64,000 nt of DNA from Acidobacteriota bacterium (GTDB lineage Bacteria > Acidobacteriota > Thermoanaerobaculia > Gp7-AA8 > JAHWKK01): positions 1 through 64,000 of the forward strand of contig JAHWKK010000007.1 in the NCBI GenBank assembly GCA_019347945.1, in the 5' to 3' direction. Under the pieces are notes generated by a model. The model did not search any database. It saw nothing but the letters and a program-made list of their open reading frames with translations, and was not told the origin of the DNA. The translations under genes and the position numbers were made by a program. Positions 32,909 to 41,267 of this stretch are shown piece after piece. The stretch's first letter is position 1. Each line of letters begins with the position of its first letter.

Positions 32909-34225
32909 TCAGCGAACCAGCGCGACGTGCATTCGCCTGAAATCGATCTTCAGCACGAAGTGCTCGAGGAAGTTCTGCCCGAGAATCCCGAGCGTGTCCG
33001 TTCGCTCGTCCCGATAGAGCGGAAGATCGTCGAAGACCCCCATCCATCGCGCGGCGCCGATCGAAACGTTTTCGATCCGGACTCCGGTCTTGATCGCTCC
33101 GCCGAGCCCCTGGAGATTCGCGGAGTGAATTCTGGGGAAGGCGCTTCTCAGGTCGCGAACCTCGATTTTCGAAAGGTTCAGGAACGTCACCTCCGATCCG
33201 GTATCGAGCATCATCGGGAACCATGCGCGCCCGTTGATCGCCGCCATCAGGAATGGCCGGCTTTCGATCAGGAAGAGGTTCTGATCCGGAGACGGGTCGG
33301 GTGGAAGGTCTCCGGTCCATTCGAAAGTCGCACGGTCCTGCCGGTAGTCGAGCTCCATTGTGAAGTTCCTCAGCAGCCCGGTGCCGAGAAGCAGGTCGAT
33401 CTGGAATCGCTCACGACCGCCAATCGCAAACTGCAGTTTTCGCGTCGCCATGATCGCGACCGGCACATTGCGGATCTCGATCGAGCCGATCTCCAGGCTC
33501 TCGATCAACCCGAAATCGACGTCGATCGGTTCGCTCAGCAGGCCCTGAACGACCGCACGGGTGTCGGGGTAACGTCGTACACCGAGTCCGTCCGCGAGAT
33601 CTCCGGAGATGATCGACAGGGACGAGCCCGTGTCGACGACACCTCGCGCGGGATGACCGTTGATCCCGACAAGGATGCGGGGAATCGCGGGACGATCGGA
33701 CTGGAGATCGACCTCGGTATTTCGCACAGAACCGGCGAGCTCGTTCGGGACGGTCTCGAGGAGTTGTTCGTGAAGACGGAAATACCAGCGCCGAATCTCG
33801 AGTCCGCCGTTCCGGGCTTCGTTTGCCTTTTCGAGCGCGCGAGCCAGATCCCCGTTCATCATTGCAACCTGTGCGAGATCCCAGTGCAGCCGTGCGCGCC
33901 GCTCCCGGTTCCGCTCATGTTCGAGAGCCCGGGAGAGGTGGGTCTCCGCGTCGGCGAGGCGCATGGCGAACAGCTCCGCGCGCCCGAGAGCCGCGAGCTC
34001 GATCGGATCGTCGGACAGCGATTCGATGATGTCGGCTCTGGAGAGGACGGCCGCGTAATCTCCACGATCGAATGCGACCACGGCGTTCGGGTGGCGCTGA
34101 ATGTCGTTCGGCGTCAGGTGGAGCGGCATGATCGTGACGTTCGAAGAGAGCGCGCACCCTCCCAGCGCGAGCGCGCAGAGCGCAGATAACCCTCTCGATG
34201 CCGATCTCGTCACGGATCGAAGCAT
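32909..34225 (-). CDS. Lipoprotein with helical repeats and two pepsin-type aspartic protease lobes
   Basis: Start ATG 34225 gives 438 residues and places a lipoprotein signal (LALGGC, Cys24) at the N-terminus; the open frame upstream is not coding by this view. Residues about 45-140 look like TPR helices. Two lobes follow, each with the aspartic protease signature: VVDTGSSLSII (Asp198) and MMLDTGSEVTFL (Asp341). Two DTG lobes on one chain could form a complete active site by themselves, unlike dimeric retropepsins. It would act at the periplasmic face of a membrane. The substrate is unknown. Confidence 0.8.
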   Translation of the reverse strand: MLRSVTRSASRGLSALCALALGGCALSSNVTIMPLHLTPNDIQRHPNAVVAFDRGDYAAVLSRADIIESLSDDPIELAALGRAELFAMRLADAETHLSRALEHERNRERRARLHWDLAQVAMMNGDLARALEKANEARNGGLEIRRWYFRLHEQLLETVPNELAGSVRNTEVDLQSDRPAIPRILVGINGHPARGVVDTGSSLSIISGDLADGLGVRRYPDTRAVVQGLLSEPIDVDFGLIESLEIGSIEIRNVPVAIMATRKLQFAIGGRERFQIDLLLGTGLLRNFTMELDYRQDRATFEWTGDLPPDPSPDQNLFLIESRPFLMAAINGRAWFPMMLDTGSEVTFLNLSKIEVRDLRSAFPRIHSANLQGLGGAIKTGVRIENVSIGAARWMGVFDDLPLYRDERTDTLGILGQNFLEHFVLKIDFRRMHVALVR

Positions 34226-34309
34226 AGCAAGATGCCCAGCCTGTCTCTCAGGGGTTTGCGAAGGTGTTTCCGCTCGCCGTGGCATGGTTTTCGCCCCCGA
34301 AATGACGTT

Positions 34310-34912
34310 GTGAGAGTCCAGGCACGCATCATCGCATCGGTTCTGCTTTTCGGCGTTTCGTGCAGCGACGAAAAACCGCTTCGCGGATGGAAGAACAGCG
34401 ACGTCGAGGTGATCAACGAGGGAACCGCCAGCGGGAGCGCCAGCCACGTGGTGGCGCCGGGAGAAAGCTTCGAGCCGATGACCTCGACCGACGTCGACAC
34501 GACTACGGTCACCGATATCGTCGGAACGGAAACGCTCGAGGAGGGGGAGTTCGTCGACGAGGGCACTCTGGCGTCGACACTCGAGCTCGATGAGGAAGGT
34601 CAGCCGGTCAGCGGGAACCCACCCGAGACCCGGCCACGACGGGCAGCTCCTCCGCAGCCGTCACCAGGTCCCTCTCCCGCGGAGCCGGCAAGAGAGACTC
34701 GACGATCCACCGAACCTGAACCAGTCGAACGACCAGATCCGACAGATGCGACTCGGGAGGAGCCTGAGGAGCCCGAAACGGAGCCGGAAGAAGAGCCCCC
34801 GACCGAAGAGTCGGAAGAGCCGCCATCCGAAGAGCCGGACGAAAACCTTTCGGATGAGGCAGATTCGGTGGAGGAATCGGCGGCGAGCTCGGAGAATGAT
34901 CGTCGCTACTGA
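34310..34912 (+). CDS. Acidic Pro/Glu-rich lipoprotein
   Basis: GTG 34310 gives 200 residues with signal RIIASVLLFGVSC (lipobox VSC, Cys18). From about residue 110 the sequence is low complexity: Pro/Arg, then long runs of Glu/Pro/Asp/Ser. It is probably an unstructured periplasmic spacer or wall-associated lipoprotein. No family is recognised. It overlaps the convergent GGDEF-EAL gene by seven bases. The low complexity means homology calls would be unreliable. Confidence 0.55.
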   Translation: MRVQARIIASVLLFGVSCSDEKPLRGWKNSDVEVINEGTASGSASHVVAPGESFEPMTSTDVDTTTVTDIVGTETLEEGEFVDEGTLASTLELDEEGQPVSGNPPETRPRRAAPPQPSPGPSPAEPARETRRSTEPEPVERPDPTDATREEPEEPETEPEEEPPTEESEEPPSEEPDENLSDEADSVEESAASSENDRRY

Positions 34913-37248
34913 GCGGTGGCTTTCGGTCGTTCGAGGTACGGAAGCAGCTCTGCGAGAGGAATCGGCCTCGCAATCGCGTAGCCTTGGGCGAGATCGCACC
35001 CGAAACTCGCGAGGACCTCAATGATCTCTTCGTCCTCGACTCCCTCTGCGACGACCTCCATCCCCATGGCGTGACCGAGATCGACGGTCGAACGAACGAC
35101 GACGTGATCCTGCGAAGGGCCATCCGAGAGGTGCATCACGAAGGAGCGGTCAATCTTCAGTTCGTGAGCGGGAAGGCGGGTGAGGTTCGACAGCGACGAG
35201 TAGCCCGTCCCATAGTCGTCGATAGCGAGGACGACACCGAGCTCGGCGAGTCGCTCGAGAGTTCTGATCGATCGGGGAGGATCCTGCATGATCGCGCTCT
35301 CCGTGATCTCCAGAGTCAGCAGCGCCGGAGGGAGACCGTGTTCCTCCAGGTGATGGGAGATGAGCCCGACCAGATTGTCGTCGAAGAAATCGAGGGCCGA
35401 CAGGTTCACCGCCACTCCTTTTGGCAGTGATACGCGTTCGGACAACGATGCGATGTCCCGGATGGCACGCGCAAGGACCCATCGCGTGATTGCGCTGATG
35501 TTTCCCGATTGTTCCGCGATAGGAATGAATTCGCCCGGGGGGAGCATGCCGTGGACCGGGTGCTGCCACCGGACGAGTGCTTCCACCCCCACGATCGATC
35601 GGTCGGCGATTCTCATCTTAGGCTGATAGAAGAGTTGAAGCTCATCGCCTGCAATCGCGGTGCGGAGCTGCGAAACCATGGCGAGCCGTCGGAGCGAGTG
35701 CTGATCCTGTCCGGGATGATAGAGAACGAAAGGCTCGTGGTTCCGCTTGGCCTGATACATGGCGATGTCGGCGCGCATCATGATCGTCTCTTCATCGTCC
35801 CCATCCTTCGGAAAGATTGCGACACCCTGGCTGGCGGTGACCTCGACCATCGCTCCTTCCAGTTCAAACGGCTCATCGAATGCCTGCTGGATCCGTCGGG
35901 GTACGACATCCCATTCATCGGAAGCATCCCCTACGAAAGCGACCGCGAATTCATCGCCGCCGAGGCGGGCGACTGTATGATCCTCGCCCAGGAGGTTCTC
36001 GAGCCTCCCACCGATCTCGCGGAGTAGAAGATCCCCGGTCTGATGACCGAGCGTATCGTTGATCTCTTTGAAGCGATTGATGTCGAGCATGATCATGATC
36101 GCGACGCGATCGAGCCGTCGCGCGTTCGCAATGTGGCTCGCGAGCTGGTCGAGAAGGTGAGCGCGATTCGGAAGCCGGGTCAGCTCGTCATGGGTCGCCT
36201 GAAACCGGATTTGTTGTTCGCGCGACGCGATCCCTTCTTTCATGCTGTTGAAAGCAGTGGTGAGGCGGCGAATCTCTTCGCCACCGGAAACTTCGATCGG
36301 ACGGGCGTAGTCGCCGCGCTCGATGCGGCCGGCGGCATGACTGAGCTCCAGCAGCGGCCGGCTCACCCCTCTCGCCACTGCGACGGCCGCAAGAAGAGCA
36401 AACGCGAGAGCCAGCATGGAAAGAAGAAAGATGCTCCATTCGAGCTGTCGCTGCGAGCTTCGTACGTCGGTGATCGATCGAACGAGTAACAGCGAGATCT
36501 CGGAACCGTCTCCCGTATCGAGAAGCCGGCGCATCGCGAGAAAGGGTGTTTCCTGAAGATCGACGATCTCTCCGTAGGGCACTGCGGAAACTCGGTCGAG
36601 AAGAGTCGGTAGCTCGTCGGGGGGGATAGACGAGGCCGTCTTCGTCGCGCTGGTCAGATCGCCGCTCCAGATCGTGGCATCCCATGAGGTCTGCAGCGGG
36701 ACGACCGACAGAACCTCGTCGTCGACGGCGAAGAGGCTCGCCACGTAATAAATGGGATTTGGAGCGAGGACGGGAACCACGACGACCTGATGCGGTGACC
36801 CCTCGAAGGTGACCAGCGCGGAAGTGCCGGGCTCACCCGACGCTCCGTTCAGCAGCTCGGGGAAGGGAAAAGACGTGGTGGAACCCGGCGAGTCGACCGT
36901 CGACGCTGTGACCGATCCGTCCAGTTCGAGCAGATACGCAGCATCGGCCGAGACTCTTCCCTGATGATTGGCGAGCGCGGATTCGATAGTGGGCTGATCC
37001 CCGAGCGCCAGCGCTTCCCTGAAAGCGAATTCCGAGGCGAGCACGCGAACGAAATTGCCGAGCTCCCGCCGCTGCGACTGCAATCGTTCATCAAAGACTT
37101 CATTGGCCTGGCTCAGTTGACGAGGAACCTCGTCGTCGAGCCGCCGTTCACCCGCCAGGCGGACCGCGATCAGCGTGGTGAGCTGCAAAAGTGCGAGGAC
37201 CGCCACGAAGAGAAGAATCAGACGCGACTGGAAGCCTCGAAAAATCAC
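34906..37248 (-). CDS. Membrane GGDEF-EAL c-di-GMP enzyme with periplasmic sensor
   Basis: This 780-residue protein has an N-terminal helix (about 9-31), a ~235-residue periplasmic sensor (CHASE4-like in size), a second helix (about 272-293), HAMP (294-350), GGDEF and EAL domains. GGDEF (430-434) is intact but lacks the RxxD I-site. EAL carries VGVEALVRW, LEITESAIM, IDDYGTGYSSL and EVVAEGVED, so phosphodiesterase activity is likely. It is last in an operon with a beta-barrel and a cupredoxin; its start overlaps the cupredoxin stop. Confidence 0.9.
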   Translation of the reverse strand: MIFRGFQSRLILLFVAVLALLQLTTLIAVRLAGERRLDDEVPRQLSQANEVFDERLQSQRRELGNFVRVLASEFAFREALALGDQPTIESALANHQGRVSADAAYLLELDGSVTASTVDSPGSTTSFPFPELLNGASGEPGTSALVTFEGSPHQVVVVPVLAPNPIYYVASLFAVDDEVLSVVPLQTSWDATIWSGDLTSATKTASSIPPDELPTLLDRVSAVPYGEIVDLQETPFLAMRRLLDTGDGSEISLLLVRSITDVRSSQRQLEWSIFLLSMLALAFALLAAVAVARGVSRPLLELSHAAGRIERGDYARPIEVSGGEEIRRLTTAFNSMKEGIASREQQIRFQATHDELTRLPNRAHLLDQLASHIANARRLDRVAIMIMLDINRFKEINDTLGHQTGDLLLREIGGRLENLLGEDHTVARLGGDEFAVAFVGDASDEWDVVPRRIQQAFDEPFELEGAMVEVTASQGVAIFPKDGDDEETIMMRADIAMYQAKRNHEPFVLYHPGQDQHSLRRLAMVSQLRTAIAGDELQLFYQPKMRIADRSIVGVEALVRWQHPVHGMLPPGEFIPIAEQSGNISAITRWVLARAIRDIASLSERVSLPKGVAVNLSALDFFDDNLVGLISHHLEEHGLPPALLTLEITESAIMQDPPRSIRTLERLAELGVVLAIDDYGTGYSSLSNLTRLPAHELKIDRSFVMHLSDGPSQDHVVVRSTVDLGHAMGMEVVAEGVEDEEIIEVLASFGCDLAQGYAIARPIPLAELLPYLERPKATAQ

Positions 37249-37856
37249 GGTGACCGGTCAGCACTCGAACCGAGTGTCACGACCGATCGCGAGGAGTCGA
37301 CCTCCACTCGCGTCGCGGTGACGGCCGATCGAATCCCCGGATACCACAACATCACGTCGTACGAACCCTCGTCGAGATCCTCGAAAGTCACTGTTCCTCC
37401 CGCGGTGGTGCTGGCGAACCAGGGGGTGTCGACGACGACGATCCACGCGCTCATCTGATCGTGAATGTTGCACCCGAGCGAAACCAGCCCGGCCTTGTCG
37501 AATATCACCGGATTCTGAGTCCTGCCCCGGTACAGCGGAAGCTGAAACACCTTCGGCTTGGAAAAGGAGTAGACCTGATGCTGAATGTTGTCGCTGTTCG
37601 GAAACTCGACGGGCGTTCCTCGCTGAATCGGCAGAACGTGAGGGATGAACATCCGGTTGTTCTGATCCATCACGGCCCTCACGTCGGCGGGGGGCGGCGG
37701 AACGGTCCGCCCAACGGGGACCGCCCATACGACGGCGTCCCCCGTCGAAGCTCCAGGCAGGCTGCCGATCCTGATCTCCAGTTCTGCGGCAAAGCTGCTC
37801 GATGGCAGGGCGCCGAGCATCAGAATCGGAATCATTTTCCTTGCGAACCGTTCCAT
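37245..37856 (-). CDS. Periplasmic cupredoxin-like (methylamine-utilization-type) protein
   Basis: A 203-residue secreted protein with signal MERFARKMIPILMLGALPSS cleaved near SFA-AE. The cupredoxin fold shows VEFPNSDNIQHQVYSF and LVSLGCNIHDQMSAWI. The spacing His..Cys-x2-His-x2-Met supplies type 1 copper ligands. A carboxypeptidase-regulatory-like strand pattern (AGGTVTFEDLDEGSYDVMLW) ends the protein. ATG 37856 is preferred over TTG 37865. It probably senses or carries copper or electrons for the adjoining c-di-GMP enzyme. Confidence 0.8.
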   Translation of the reverse strand: MERFARKMIPILMLGALPSSSFAAELEIRIGSLPGASTGDAVVWAVPVGRTVPPPPADVRAVMDQNNRMFIPHVLPIQRGTPVEFPNSDNIQHQVYSFSKPKVFQLPLYRGRTQNPVIFDKAGLVSLGCNIHDQMSAWIVVVDTPWFASTTAGGTVTFEDLDEGSYDVMLWYPGIRSAVTATRVEVDSSRSVVTLGSSADRSP

Positions 37857-37861
37857 GTCGA

Positions 37862-39001
37862 TCAATTGCCATTCAATCCTAGTGAAAAAGCGTATTCGCC
37901 GAAAAACGCGAGGCGGGTGTCGTCATCAGTTGCGGATATCTCGGCGCCCGCCCGGAAGCGACTCGGCGGGGTCCAGATCCACGCCACCGTCAGGGCTTCG
38001 CCGCGATCTTCCTGGTAGCCGGCGAGCGGGTCGGGGGGAAACTCGGTTCCGTAGCTGTCAAAGCGGCCCGAGAGCCTCCACGACTCGAACTTCTTCGAAA
38101 TCAGCACGTAGGACGCATCGATCTCGGCTTCGACCTCGCCCGAGTCGAAACGCGCGATCGTGACGCCCCAGCCGACCTCGGCTATGAATGTCCAGTCCCC
38201 CCGGACGTGCTCGGCGCTCACGATACGGAACGGTGTTTCCCAGGTGAGGATGTCACCGTAGCGGAACCCGTCGGCTTCGTTGTCGATGATTGTCAACTGA
38301 ATCTGAGTCGCCTGATTGTTCCAGCGTGCGCGAGCCGCCCAGCCGGTCCGACCGTCGAGCTCCGGCGAGATCGAGGTGATCGTCCCGGGAACGAGGTCGA
38401 TTCGCTCGTCGAGCAGAGCCACGTTGTCGTGCAGACTCCATCCCCGCTCGGCGACGATGGAGCCGAAGGCATCATTGCCGCGATAGGCGGTCGCCCCGAT
38501 CGTGAACCCTGACCGGTAATAGTCCAGGTCGATTCCAATCGGGCGGAACTCTTCACCGAGCCATGAGTTCAAAGCGGATGCATTGATCGTGTAGGGATTC
38601 TTCCAGAACGCGTCGACGTGCTCCCTCGAGGTCGGAAGAAAGAACGCGCCGGCCTTGATCCGGAAGCGCTGAGCGCGCGGGCGGAAGTTCAGCTCCAGGT
38701 AGCCCTCGATCAGTCCCAGTTGCTCCCGTCGCCTCTCAGGGCGGTCGTCGCGCGCAAGGACGTCAGCGTGAACGCGTACCGATGGATGCAGATACCAGTC
38801 GGCCCCGAGTCGGAGCTCATAGCCCGGATCGAGCTCGGGCAACGCCGTCGACTCCTCACTCAGGGAAGCAGAGCCGGAGACGAGCCCGCTGAGCTGGAAC
38901 GACTGCTGTGCCAGAGCACTTCCGGCGAGTCCCATCTCGACCAGAAGGACGATCACGACCGGCGTGCGCACGCCCGTGCGGAGCGGCAGTTCATGTCTCA
39001 C
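37862..39001 (-). CDS. Outer-membrane beta-barrel (porin-like) protein
   Basis: This 379-residue secreted protein (signal ending ALA-QQS) has alternating hydrophobic/polar strands throughout, many with aromatic girdle residues (WYLHPSVRVHADVLARD, WAARARWNN, EYAFSLGLNGN), as expected of a barrel of about 16 strands. The last residue is Asn rather than Phe. It is five bases upstream of the cupredoxin gene and overlaps the YfhO-like gene by 11 bases. Its substrate is unknown. Confidence 0.7.
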   Translation of the reverse strand: MRHELPLRTGVRTPVVIVLLVEMGLAGSALAQQSFQLSGLVSGSASLSEESTALPELDPGYELRLGADWYLHPSVRVHADVLARDDRPERRREQLGLIEGYLELNFRPRAQRFRIKAGAFFLPTSREHVDAFWKNPYTINASALNSWLGEEFRPIGIDLDYYRSGFTIGATAYRGNDAFGSIVAERGWSLHDNVALLDERIDLVPGTITSISPELDGRTGWAARARWNNQATQIQLTIIDNEADGFRYGDILTWETPFRIVSAEHVRGDWTFIAEVGWGVTIARFDSGEVEAEIDASYVLISKKFESWRLSGRFDSYGTEFPPDPLAGYQEDRGEALTVAWIWTPPSRFRAGAEISATDDDTRLAFFGEYAFSLGLNGN

Positions 39002-41267
39002 GACGCTCCAGTTTACGTCGCCCGGCCAACCACGTGCGACCCACCAAGGATAGGACGATGATGGAAATGAGCAGGGTCGAGCCCCCCCAACTCAGAAGAA
39101 TCAAAGACCGCCGCCTGCTGAACTCGAGCTCGATCCGAGAGCGGCCAGCCGGTACTTCGACCCCGAGCTGATCGACGTACACGGGGGTGATCCGGAGATC
39201 CCGGCCCTCTGCCGTGGTCGCTCTCCAGGCTGAAAAAAATGTATGGGGCGTCACGATGAGACCCGCCTTCTCGGCCGACAGATCCAGCAGTACGCCCTGG
39301 CTGCCTGCTCCGACGAGTGCGATTCTCGCATCGGCCGCGACCGTAAAAGGTCCGCGTGGAACGAGAACGATCCTCGCCGGATCGAGTCCCCCTTCAATTG
39401 CCTCGACCGCATCGTTGACGTTTCCGACCTGAATCACCTCCGGCGGGCTTCGATAGGGATCGGGATGATCGATCGAGGAGAGGACGGCCGGCAGCGGAGC
39501 GCCCGCGGCTCTCAACGCGACCGCACGGCGATCTTCGAGCGGAGTCGGAGTCACCATCAGATCGGCATTGGCGGCTCGAGCCCAGATAATTTTCAGAGCG
39601 TCGGAACCGGACTCGAAACGCTCTGCTGTCACCCGCGACAGGTACGATGACATTCCATCCGGTGACCGGACGAGGGCGTAGGAGGCTCCATCTGCGATTG
39701 CAGAAAAGGGGACGGCCCGGCTCTCATACGTCCGGTAGAGAATTCGAGGGGGGAGAGTCGCGTCGCTCCCCCGGGTGACCCGCGTGTCGTAAGCGATCGA
39801 TTTTCCGGTGAGGCTCGAGGTCAGCGGGGAGGGCTGCTCATAGAAAGAGGACCGATCGATGCCGAGCGTCGCCGGGAAGAGCAGAAGCAGTCCGCCGAGA
39901 CTGAGAGCCCCGGACGCCAGCGCCGCGCGCCGACCATTCCGCACGACCAGAAGGATCGCGAGGGAACCGAACCCGGCCAGAGTTGCCGCGATGACTCTCG
40001 ATCCGGAGACGATGTCCGTCGTGAACCAGCCCGCGGAGATGGCGCTCAGCGCAATCACCCCGATCAGAGGACCGAAGATCACGCGGCGACCGGACCGCAC
40101 ACTTTCCAGCAGCATGCCGGTCAACACAACACCCGAAAGAGTCGTCACGAGAAGGAGCTTCTGAGGATAGCGGACGGCCAGATCGAGTCCGGCCGTCGCG
40201 AAGAATGACTCGAGACCCGGAAGGAATCGCCCGAGAGAAAAAAGAAGACTCGTCGCAAAGAGAAGCTTCCAGATCCACGCCCTCGCCGGAGTCGGTGAGC
40301 CCGCCAGGAGTGCCGGAAGGAGGAGGGCGCCGATGAAGATCGAGTGGAACAGCAGCTCGTCGGTCGGAAAACCGACCGGCAGCCGATCGAGCTCGGCCGC
40401 GGAAAGCGAAGGCATCGGTCCGTATGGAGCGGCAGCGAGAAGCTCGGGGATTCGGATCGGGTGGAGGGACGCGGTCAGGGCGACCTCAGGTGAAAAACTG
40501 AACACGCCTCGCTCAGTCTCATCGATGATCTCATCGGTTGCGATCAGTTGCGGCAGGACGATGAGGAGGGCGATCGTGAAGGCGAGAGCGAGTGCGGGAG
40601 CATGCCTCCATCCGATCCTGGAGACCCCTAGGAGAATCAACGTCACCCCCGTGGCAGCGATGACCAGAGGCTCGCCGCAAAATCCGAACAAACCGAGCGC
40701 GAGGCCGAGCACTGGCCCTGCACGGAGAGCTTCCCGGATCGAGCGGGAGTCCGCCAGAGTCTCCAGCGCCAGGACGCACCACGGCAGAAAAGCCGCCGCA
40801 ACGATCAGGTTGTAAAGGCTGGCACACGAAGCGACGACTCCGCTGGTGAGGTAGAACAAACCGGTCATCACGCTGATCGGGGGTGACAGTCCGAGCCTGC
40901 GGCCCAACCTTCGCGCGCCTTCGAAGGCCAGCGCGAGATGGATGAGAAAGTGGAGGTTGAAACCGACCCGCGCCGGAACGATGAGTTGCAGCAGCGTCGT
41001 CGGATGGAACGTGAGGTAGTTGGGATTTCCCGCGAGTGGCTGACCTCCCGACACGGCCGGGTTCCACATCGGAAGCTCGCCGGAGAGAAGGATCTGCCGG
41101 GTCATTGCCTTGACCGGGTAGTGCGTGGAGAAGTTGTCGCGATAGAAGAAGAAGTATCGGGTGGAGACGACGATGATGAAGCCCAGGAGCAGGGTAACGA
41201 GAGTGCCCGTGATCAGGATCCGGATCCGGGTGTTCGGAGTTCCGGAAGAGCGATCTTCCTCGAGCAT
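38991..41267 (-). CDS. YfhO-like polytopic membrane protein
   Basis: A 758-residue inner-membrane protein has about a dozen helices over residues 15-480 and a C-terminal periplasmic region ending in one more helix (LILLSWGGSTLLISIIVLSLVG) and a basic tail. The opening Tyr/Asp-rich loop (FFFYRDNFSTHYPVKAM, LPMWNPAVSGGQPLAGNPNY) is typical of YfhO/GT-C-like proteins that handle lipid-linked sugars. The exact reaction is unknown. It is first in the minus-strand operon leading to the barrel gene. Confidence 0.75.
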   Translation of the reverse strand: MLEEDRSSGTPNTRIRILITGTLVTLLLGFIIVVSTRYFFFYRDNFSTHYPVKAMTRQILLSGELPMWNPAVSGGQPLAGNPNYLTFHPTTLLQLIVPARVGFNLHFLIHLALAFEGARRLGRRLGLSPPISVMTGLFYLTSGVVASCASLYNLIVAAAFLPWCVLALETLADSRSIREALRAGPVLGLALGLFGFCGEPLVIAATGVTLILLGVSRIGWRHAPALALAFTIALLIVLPQLIATDEIIDETERGVFSFSPEVALTASLHPIRIPELLAAAPYGPMPSLSAAELDRLPVGFPTDELLFHSIFIGALLLPALLAGSPTPARAWIWKLLFATSLLFSLGRFLPGLESFFATAGLDLAVRYPQKLLLVTTLSGVVLTGMLLESVRSGRRVIFGPLIGVIALSAISAGWFTTDIVSGSRVIAATLAGFGSLAILLVVRNGRRAALASGALSLGGLLLLFPATLGIDRSSFYEQPSPLTSSLTGKSIAYDTRVTRGSDATLPPRILYRTYESRAVPFSAIADGASYALVRSPDGMSSYLSRVTAERFESGSDALKIIWARAANADLMVTPTPLEDRRAVALRAAGAPLPAVLSSIDHPDPYRSPPEVIQVGNVNDAVEAIEGGLDPARIVLVPRGPFTVAADARIALVGAGSQGVLLDLSAEKAGLIVTPHTFFSAWRATTAEGRDLRITPVYVDQLGVEVPAGRSRIELEFSRRRSLILLSWGGSTLLISIIVLSLVGRTWLAGRRKLERRET

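Follow-up and report, generated by a model that had tools for sequence, protein, structure and literature searches.

A secreted blue-copper protein beside a dCache-HAMP receptor in Acidobacteriota: a candidate sensory module with exchangeable outputs

In Vibrio cholerae the periplasmic protein NspS, a solute-binding protein of the polyamine type, is the ligand of the membrane GGDEF-EAL enzyme MbaA. In Acidithiobacillus an outer-membrane barrel, Cyc2, and a periplasmic cupredoxin, rusticyanin, form an iron-oxidation pair. The Cyc2 member of this pair is described in PMC8406198. The YfiBNR (TpbB) system of Pseudomonas aeruginosa joins an outer-membrane protein, a soluble periplasmic regulator and an inner-membrane HAMP enzyme of cyclic dimeric GMP (c-di-GMP) metabolism (PMC2837407, PMC4655355), while in the IsmP-ImcA iron module of the same species a CHASE4 domain itself binds iron (PMC10904736). 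Here we describe a gene trio from an Acidobacteriota bacterium (assembly GCA_019347945.1, contig JAHWKK010000007.1, positions 1 to 64,000; this whole stretch of 64,000 nucleotides is called the window). It encodes an outer-membrane barrel, a secreted cupredoxin and an inner-membrane enzyme with a periplasmic dCache sensor domain. We propose, at odds slightly better than even (about 0.55), that the trio is a three-compartment signalling module in which the cupredoxin serves as the dedicated sensory partner of the dCache-HAMP receptor.

37862..39001, minus strand: outer-membrane porin-like beta-barrel, 379 amino acids (aa), signal peptide, no cysteine
37245..37856, minus strand: secreted cupredoxin, 203 aa, signal peptide, C-terminal carboxypeptidase-regulatory-like (immunoglobulin-like) domain
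34906..37248, minus strand: inner-membrane dCache-HAMP-GGDEF-EAL enzyme, 780 aa, Pfam HAMP, GGDEF and EAL
37245..37248, minus strand: GTGA overlap of cupredoxin stop and enzyme start, read from the sequence

The three minus-strand genes lie where a preliminary description of this DNA had placed them, and the spacing of 5 bases between barrel and cupredoxin is as it reported. The four-base overlap between cupredoxin and enzyme, which it gave as ATGA, is in fact GTGA, with a GTG start.

Cupredoxin and sensor genes are paired far beyond the window. An alignment-based pattern scan of named genomes returned at least 592 related cupredoxin loci (a scan of genome contigs with the single cupredoxin sequence gave no match, unlike the alignment-based one), and the best 80 were analysed in detail. 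These 80 span Acidobacteriota, Pseudomonadota, Nitrospirota, Nitrospinota, Chthoniobacterales, Methylomirabilota, Rokuibacteriota, Riflebacteria and others. The sensor gene lies directly downstream on the same strand in 58 of them and within the locus in 69. Searching from the sensor side is the stronger test because its starting point is independent of the cupredoxin. All ten matches obtained with the sensor alone in 61 related genomes adjoin a cupredoxin match. Across 297 genomes of the window's phylum, at least 44 of 81 sensor matches have a cupredoxin within 600 bases, in every case upstream and on the same strand, and at least 23 further matches have one within 5 kilobases, for a total of at least 67 of 81. 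In the class to which Pseudomonas chlororaphis belongs (229 genomes), 13 of the 19 sensor matches adjoin a cupredoxin and 3 more have one within 5 kilobases (16 of 19, counted by eye). The chance expectation of a cupredoxin within 600 bases is about 0.0006 (6e-4) per sensor. The pairing of cupredoxin and sensor is well shown and forms a widespread module. Co-occurrence across genomes, which the preliminary description had named as a check on its reading of the trio, was found for this pair in both phyla approached from the sensor side.

The complete trio was followed among relatives of the same order, where ten trio-type cupredoxin loci were recognized. A GGDEF-EAL sensor gene adjoins the cupredoxin in seven of the ten, and a member of the window's barrel family, often divergently transcribed, lies beside it in nine. 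At the tenth (locus L066 in our numbering) a DUF3034 protein and a truncated globin replace the barrel. More distant genomes of the phylum contain two additional trios of this kind (L145 and L146). A variant trio (L147) combines a cupredoxin and a barrel of the window's family with a sensor whose output is a Ser/Thr kinase. A search for fusions of cupredoxin and sensor genes among the open reading frames of the loci supports no such claim: the long frames that could suggest one are stop-to-stop artefacts.

The receptor itself is organized as follows.

Residues ~8-29: first transmembrane helix; the second follows the periplasmic region and precedes HAMP
36445..37149, minus strand: periplasmic dCache sensor, residues 34-268 (AlphaFold2 predicted local distance difference test, pLDDT, 91.8; Foldseek; Pfam dCache_3 in relatives)
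36232..36378, minus strand: HAMP, residues 291-339 (Pfam E 2.9e-12)
35737..36198, minus strand: GGDEF, residues 351-504 (Pfam E 1.5e-41), motif intact here
34963..35670, minus strand: EAL phosphodiesterase, residues 527-762 (Pfam E 7.4e-68), catalytic residues present

A periplasmic sensor of about 235 residues followed by GGDEF and EAL had been described beforehand, and this layout is recovered, the periplasmic region covering approximately residues 34-268. By its predicted structure this part, enclosed between the two transmembrane helices, is a dCache domain: the closest Foldseek folds to the model are the dCache domains of DctB and PctA. With the Pfam dCache_3 profile the window sensor scores 21.2, under the cut-off of 25.7, and several relatives score above it (E down to 1.2e-11). 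The domain carries no conserved cysteine or methionine and a single column with a majority of histidines, so that any metal site would sit in the cupredoxin. On the cytoplasmic side, all 56 GGDEF-EAL partners keep the EAL catalytic positions (N, E, DD, K, E, Q), but just half of them (28) have an intact GGDEF motif, which is degenerate in the others; this indicates that the common output is mainly c-di-GMP breakdown. The window enzyme probably destroys c-di-GMP, hydrolysis being predicted from its residues. With both of its motifs intact, it could also have a dual activity.

The same sensor and HAMP domains precede outputs of different kinds. GGDEF-EAL is found in most loci; the others are a class III cyclase (8 of 10 non-GGDEF partners scanned), a histidine kinase (L104 and L109) or a cyclase-like region with a Ser/Thr kinase (L049 and relatives). 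These cyclase and kinase versions make c-di-GMP only one of several outputs. The sensor is seldom found apart from the cupredoxin, whereas the output behind it varies; in the simplest interpretation, the cupredoxin is what the dCache domain reads. The earlier suggestion that the cupredoxin informs the sensor of a c-di-GMP enzyme thus gains strong comparative support from the pairing, the fixed gene order and the swapped outputs. Its wording in terms of c-di-GMP levels can be narrowed, the conserved output being a phosphodiesterase and hence most likely breakdown, and must also be widened to cyclase and kinase outputs. In several loci (L042, L044, L049, L050, L143, L144 and L147) a cupredoxin paralogue is followed by a HAMP/cyclase-like/Ser/Thr kinase fusion of 740-960 aa, an unusual architecture for a receptor kinase.

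The cupredoxin, to which the preliminary description had attributed type 1 copper ligands, carries all four of them (H93, C129, H132 and M135).

37578..37580, minus strand: copper ligand His93, invariant in 81/81 and in 21/21 motif-independent sequences
37452..37472, minus strand: copper ligands Cys129-x2-His132-x2-Met135 (CNIHDQM), invariant in 81/81 and 21/21

The spacing C-x2-H-x2-M is amicyanin-like, and the four ligands are invariant in the 81 aligned cupredoxins. The scan patterns included H93, C129 and H132, whereas Met135 lay outside both search patterns; the fair tests are therefore M135 and the 21 cupredoxins gathered without motif patterns, and both are complete. A profile of the family detects the type 1 copper domain of copper nitrite reductase (E 1.4e-4) as well as a blue copper protein (E 7.6e-4). 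By ligands and profile the window protein is a type 1 (blue) copper cupredoxin, predicted to bind copper. A CarboxypepD_reg domain is recognized at the C-terminus of 54 of 60 family members. Thirty-five positions are at least 90% conserved, and 29 of them fall within residues 80-147, around the copper site, a distribution that suggests a protein-contact face in this region.

The first gene of the trio had been called a beta-barrel, in agreement with the AlphaFold2 model (predicted TM score, pTM, 0.76; pLDDT 74, a moderate confidence), which shows long antiparallel strands. Its Foldseek matches are OmpT of V. cholerae (E 1.7e-10, the lowest value), OmpU and chitoporin, with a query TM score of ~0.5-0.6. 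A porin-type beta-barrel fold is predicted and an open channel is only putative. The protein matches no Pfam or NCBIfam family, and without cysteine it has no c-type heme site. Of the 80 loci, 61 contain a gene of outer-membrane type that belongs to one of three families: that of the window's barrel, DUF3034 and a third one with a signal peptide and, mostly, an aromatic C-terminus. The window's barrel family has no sequence relation to the other two, which are presumed to be barrels as well. Members of the third family (~290 aa) lie immediately upstream of the cupredoxin in 14 loci, including L065, L069, L071, L072, L073, L080 and L109; two members scanned gave no Pfam or NCBIfam match. DUF3034 is accompanied by a truncated globin that is secreted or a lipoprotein. 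In Pseudomonas loci (L096, L102, L110, L118 and L138) the truncated globins have a lipobox-like N-terminus (e.g. LAACAQQ) and are apparently lipoproteins. A truncated globin was looked for in the window's own genome and none was recognized. Sets of DUF3034, globin and cupredoxin are also annotated on plasmids of Caballeronia and Novosphingobium, where the cupredoxins are labelled 'methylamine utilization protein' or 'carboxypeptidase regulatory-like domain-containing protein'.

These elements can be assembled into a working model. The oxidation state of the copper site, or its copper loading, would alter the docking of the cupredoxin on the dCache domain. HAMP would relay this change to the cytoplasm and so set the c-di-GMP phosphodiesterase activity of the EAL domain, with the GGDEF domain having mainly a regulatory role or a secondary activity. 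The barrel could act as the upstream input, a conduit for a metal, an oxidant or a small redox molecule; alternatively, it might be a docking site that keeps the cupredoxin off the receptor, as YfiB does with YfiR. Copper binding, physical docking, the dependence on redox state or metal, the sign of the response and the role of the barrel are what we infer from the data above. The presence of an outer-membrane gene and a globin suggests that an agent which enters from outside, whether copper, an oxidant, NO or O2, determines the state of the cupredoxin. It is the recurrent linkage of outer-membrane proteins that would point to entry of the signal through the barrel. The globin as a frequent partner, combined with the lack of recurrent copper-homeostasis neighbours, tends to favour a redox or gas signal over copper supply.

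Several observations weigh against this model. Eight of the 80 loci have a barrel and a cupredoxin without a linked sensor, so that the cupredoxin may have a role beyond signalling. Seven of these eight genomes carry the sensor elsewhere: in five of the seven a second cupredoxin adjoins the distant sensor, and in two the sole cupredoxin and the sole sensor are unlinked. In addition, 12 of the 80 loci have a cupredoxin and a GGDEF-EAL sensor without a recognized outer-membrane partner. Distance matrices correlate between cupredoxin and sensor (r 0.81), but the correlation between cupredoxin and EAL is as good (r 0.84), so that co-inheritance gives no reason to prefer the sensor over EAL as the contact. 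The barrel-cupredoxin pairs without a linked sensor would suit electron transfer, in which the cupredoxin shuttles electrons between an outer-membrane redox partner and the respiratory chain and the sensor monitors this flow or is merely co-regulated. So would the paralogous cupredoxins of some relatives, which stand between a CxxCH protein resembling Cyc2 (a lead only) and a ferredoxin/pyridine-nucleotide oxidoreductase-like protein. We nevertheless consider electron transfer unlikely: the window barrel cannot hold a c-type heme, neither a cytochrome nor a reductase was seen to recur beside trio-type cupredoxins, and what does recur there is a receptor whose outputs are of four kinds.

A role in copper homeostasis, with the barrel admitting copper, the cupredoxin as chaperone or store and the receptor reporting its loading to adjust attachment, appears somewhat less probable still. 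The complete and invariant type 1 site and the adjoining porin-type barrel agree with it, but the neighbours of the 80 loci showed no copper exporter, oxidase or regulator that recurred, and the frequent globin points to O2 or NO chemistry. Alternatively, the protein could be a structural adaptor that retains the cupredoxin fold only, copper being irrelevant and the true signal being a small ligand bound by dCache. Such domains typically bind small molecules directly, as has been established for the most similar folds, DctB and PctA, and the Ig-like C-terminal domain of the cupredoxin could serve docking. However, invariance of the four ligands in all 21 distant relatives collected independently of motifs is not expected if copper is dispensable, and we regard this explanation as improbable. 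Finally, each part is found in some genomes without the others, as would be the case for chance neighbours or simple co-expression with no functional link. Pairing in two phyla, in constant order and at rates hundreds of times above chance, already contradicts this, leaving it scarcely credible. The signalling module, with the cupredoxin as sensory partner of the receptor, is the reading we retain. A broader version is tentative and falls somewhat short of even odds: blue-copper proteins may constitute a general class of periplasmic ligands that report redox state to dCache receptors, with a single input unit (barrel and cupredoxin, sometimes with a secreted globin) plugged into c-di-GMP, cyclic AMP-type, histidine-kinase or Ser/Thr-kinase outputs across phyla.

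The surroundings of the trio and of its relatives include other genes.

38991..39001, minus strand: 11-base overlap of the barrel GTG start with the upstream gene for a 758-aa membrane protein (open reading frame coordinates)

This overlap implies that the transcript may exceed three genes. The 758-aa protein (38991-41267, minus strand) appears to span the membrane several times and matches neither Pfam nor NCBIfam families; it was rejected as a member of the module, having no homologue in the loci of relatives. On the other side, at 32909-34447 (minus strand), the window encodes a protein with a TPR-like part and two retropepsin-like aspartyl protease matches. All-against-all BLAST of the neighbours returned mostly antisense artefacts or genus-specific genes, plus one new outer-membrane-type family. 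In six loci of the same order (L041, L043 and L045-L048) a paralogous cupredoxin lies directly downstream of a secreted protein of 450-490 aa with one CxxCH near its N-terminus (IPAFARKYETSCQTCH...) and upstream of a Fer4/pyridine-nucleotide oxidoreductase of ~610 aa. The former, which has no Pfam or NCBIfam match, resembles the Cyc2-type fused cytochrome-porins, a resemblance to be taken as a lead only.

How bacteria couple extracytoplasmic redox sensing to c-di-GMP or cAMP decisions is poorly understood. If the proposed reading is true, a widespread family misnamed 'methylamine utilization protein' is a sensory subunit, and this family provides a naturally occurring system with a single input unit wired to several outputs, an idea testable in culturable species. 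The cupredoxin-sensor pair is apparently undescribed as a module: no description was found in the literature searched, outside which most subscription papers lie, so that novelty is unproven. A 2022 review of c-di-GMP stimuli mentions neither copper nor cupredoxins (PMC8846402).

Compared with known systems, the trio shares with amicyanin the C-x2-H-x2-M spacing and, in homologues on Caballeronia and Comamonas plasmids, the methylamine utilization label. Neither the window cupredoxin (no match) nor a paralogue (17.6 bits, cut-off 110.2) is recognized by the NCBIfam amicyanin model, and the annotated neighbourhoods of homologues that were read contain no methylamine-utilization genes. Cyc2 of the Cyc2-rusticyanin pair carries heme, whereas the window barrel has no cysteine and its pair is linked to a receptor. 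The layout in three parts is common to the trio and YfiBNR, with no homology claimed. However, YfiR is not a cupredoxin while the window's periplasmic protein matches cupredoxins, YfiB is an OmpA/Pal-like lipoprotein rather than a porin-type barrel, and the cyclase YfiN lacks EAL and has a periplasmic domain of PAS-like type. As its periplasmic regulator and outer-membrane protein are not of the Yfi types, the trio is not filed as a YfiBNR member. IsmP-ImcA resembles it in that a metal signal, here proposed, controls c-di-GMP via a CHASE4/Cache-type domain. It differs in that the window dCache has no conserved metal ligands, the metal site being expected in a separate cupredoxin. NspS likewise is a periplasmic partner of a GGDEF-EAL enzyme but is not a copper protein. 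A receptor with a periplasmic accessory protein is thus of a known kind; what is new is that the accessory is a blue-copper protein.

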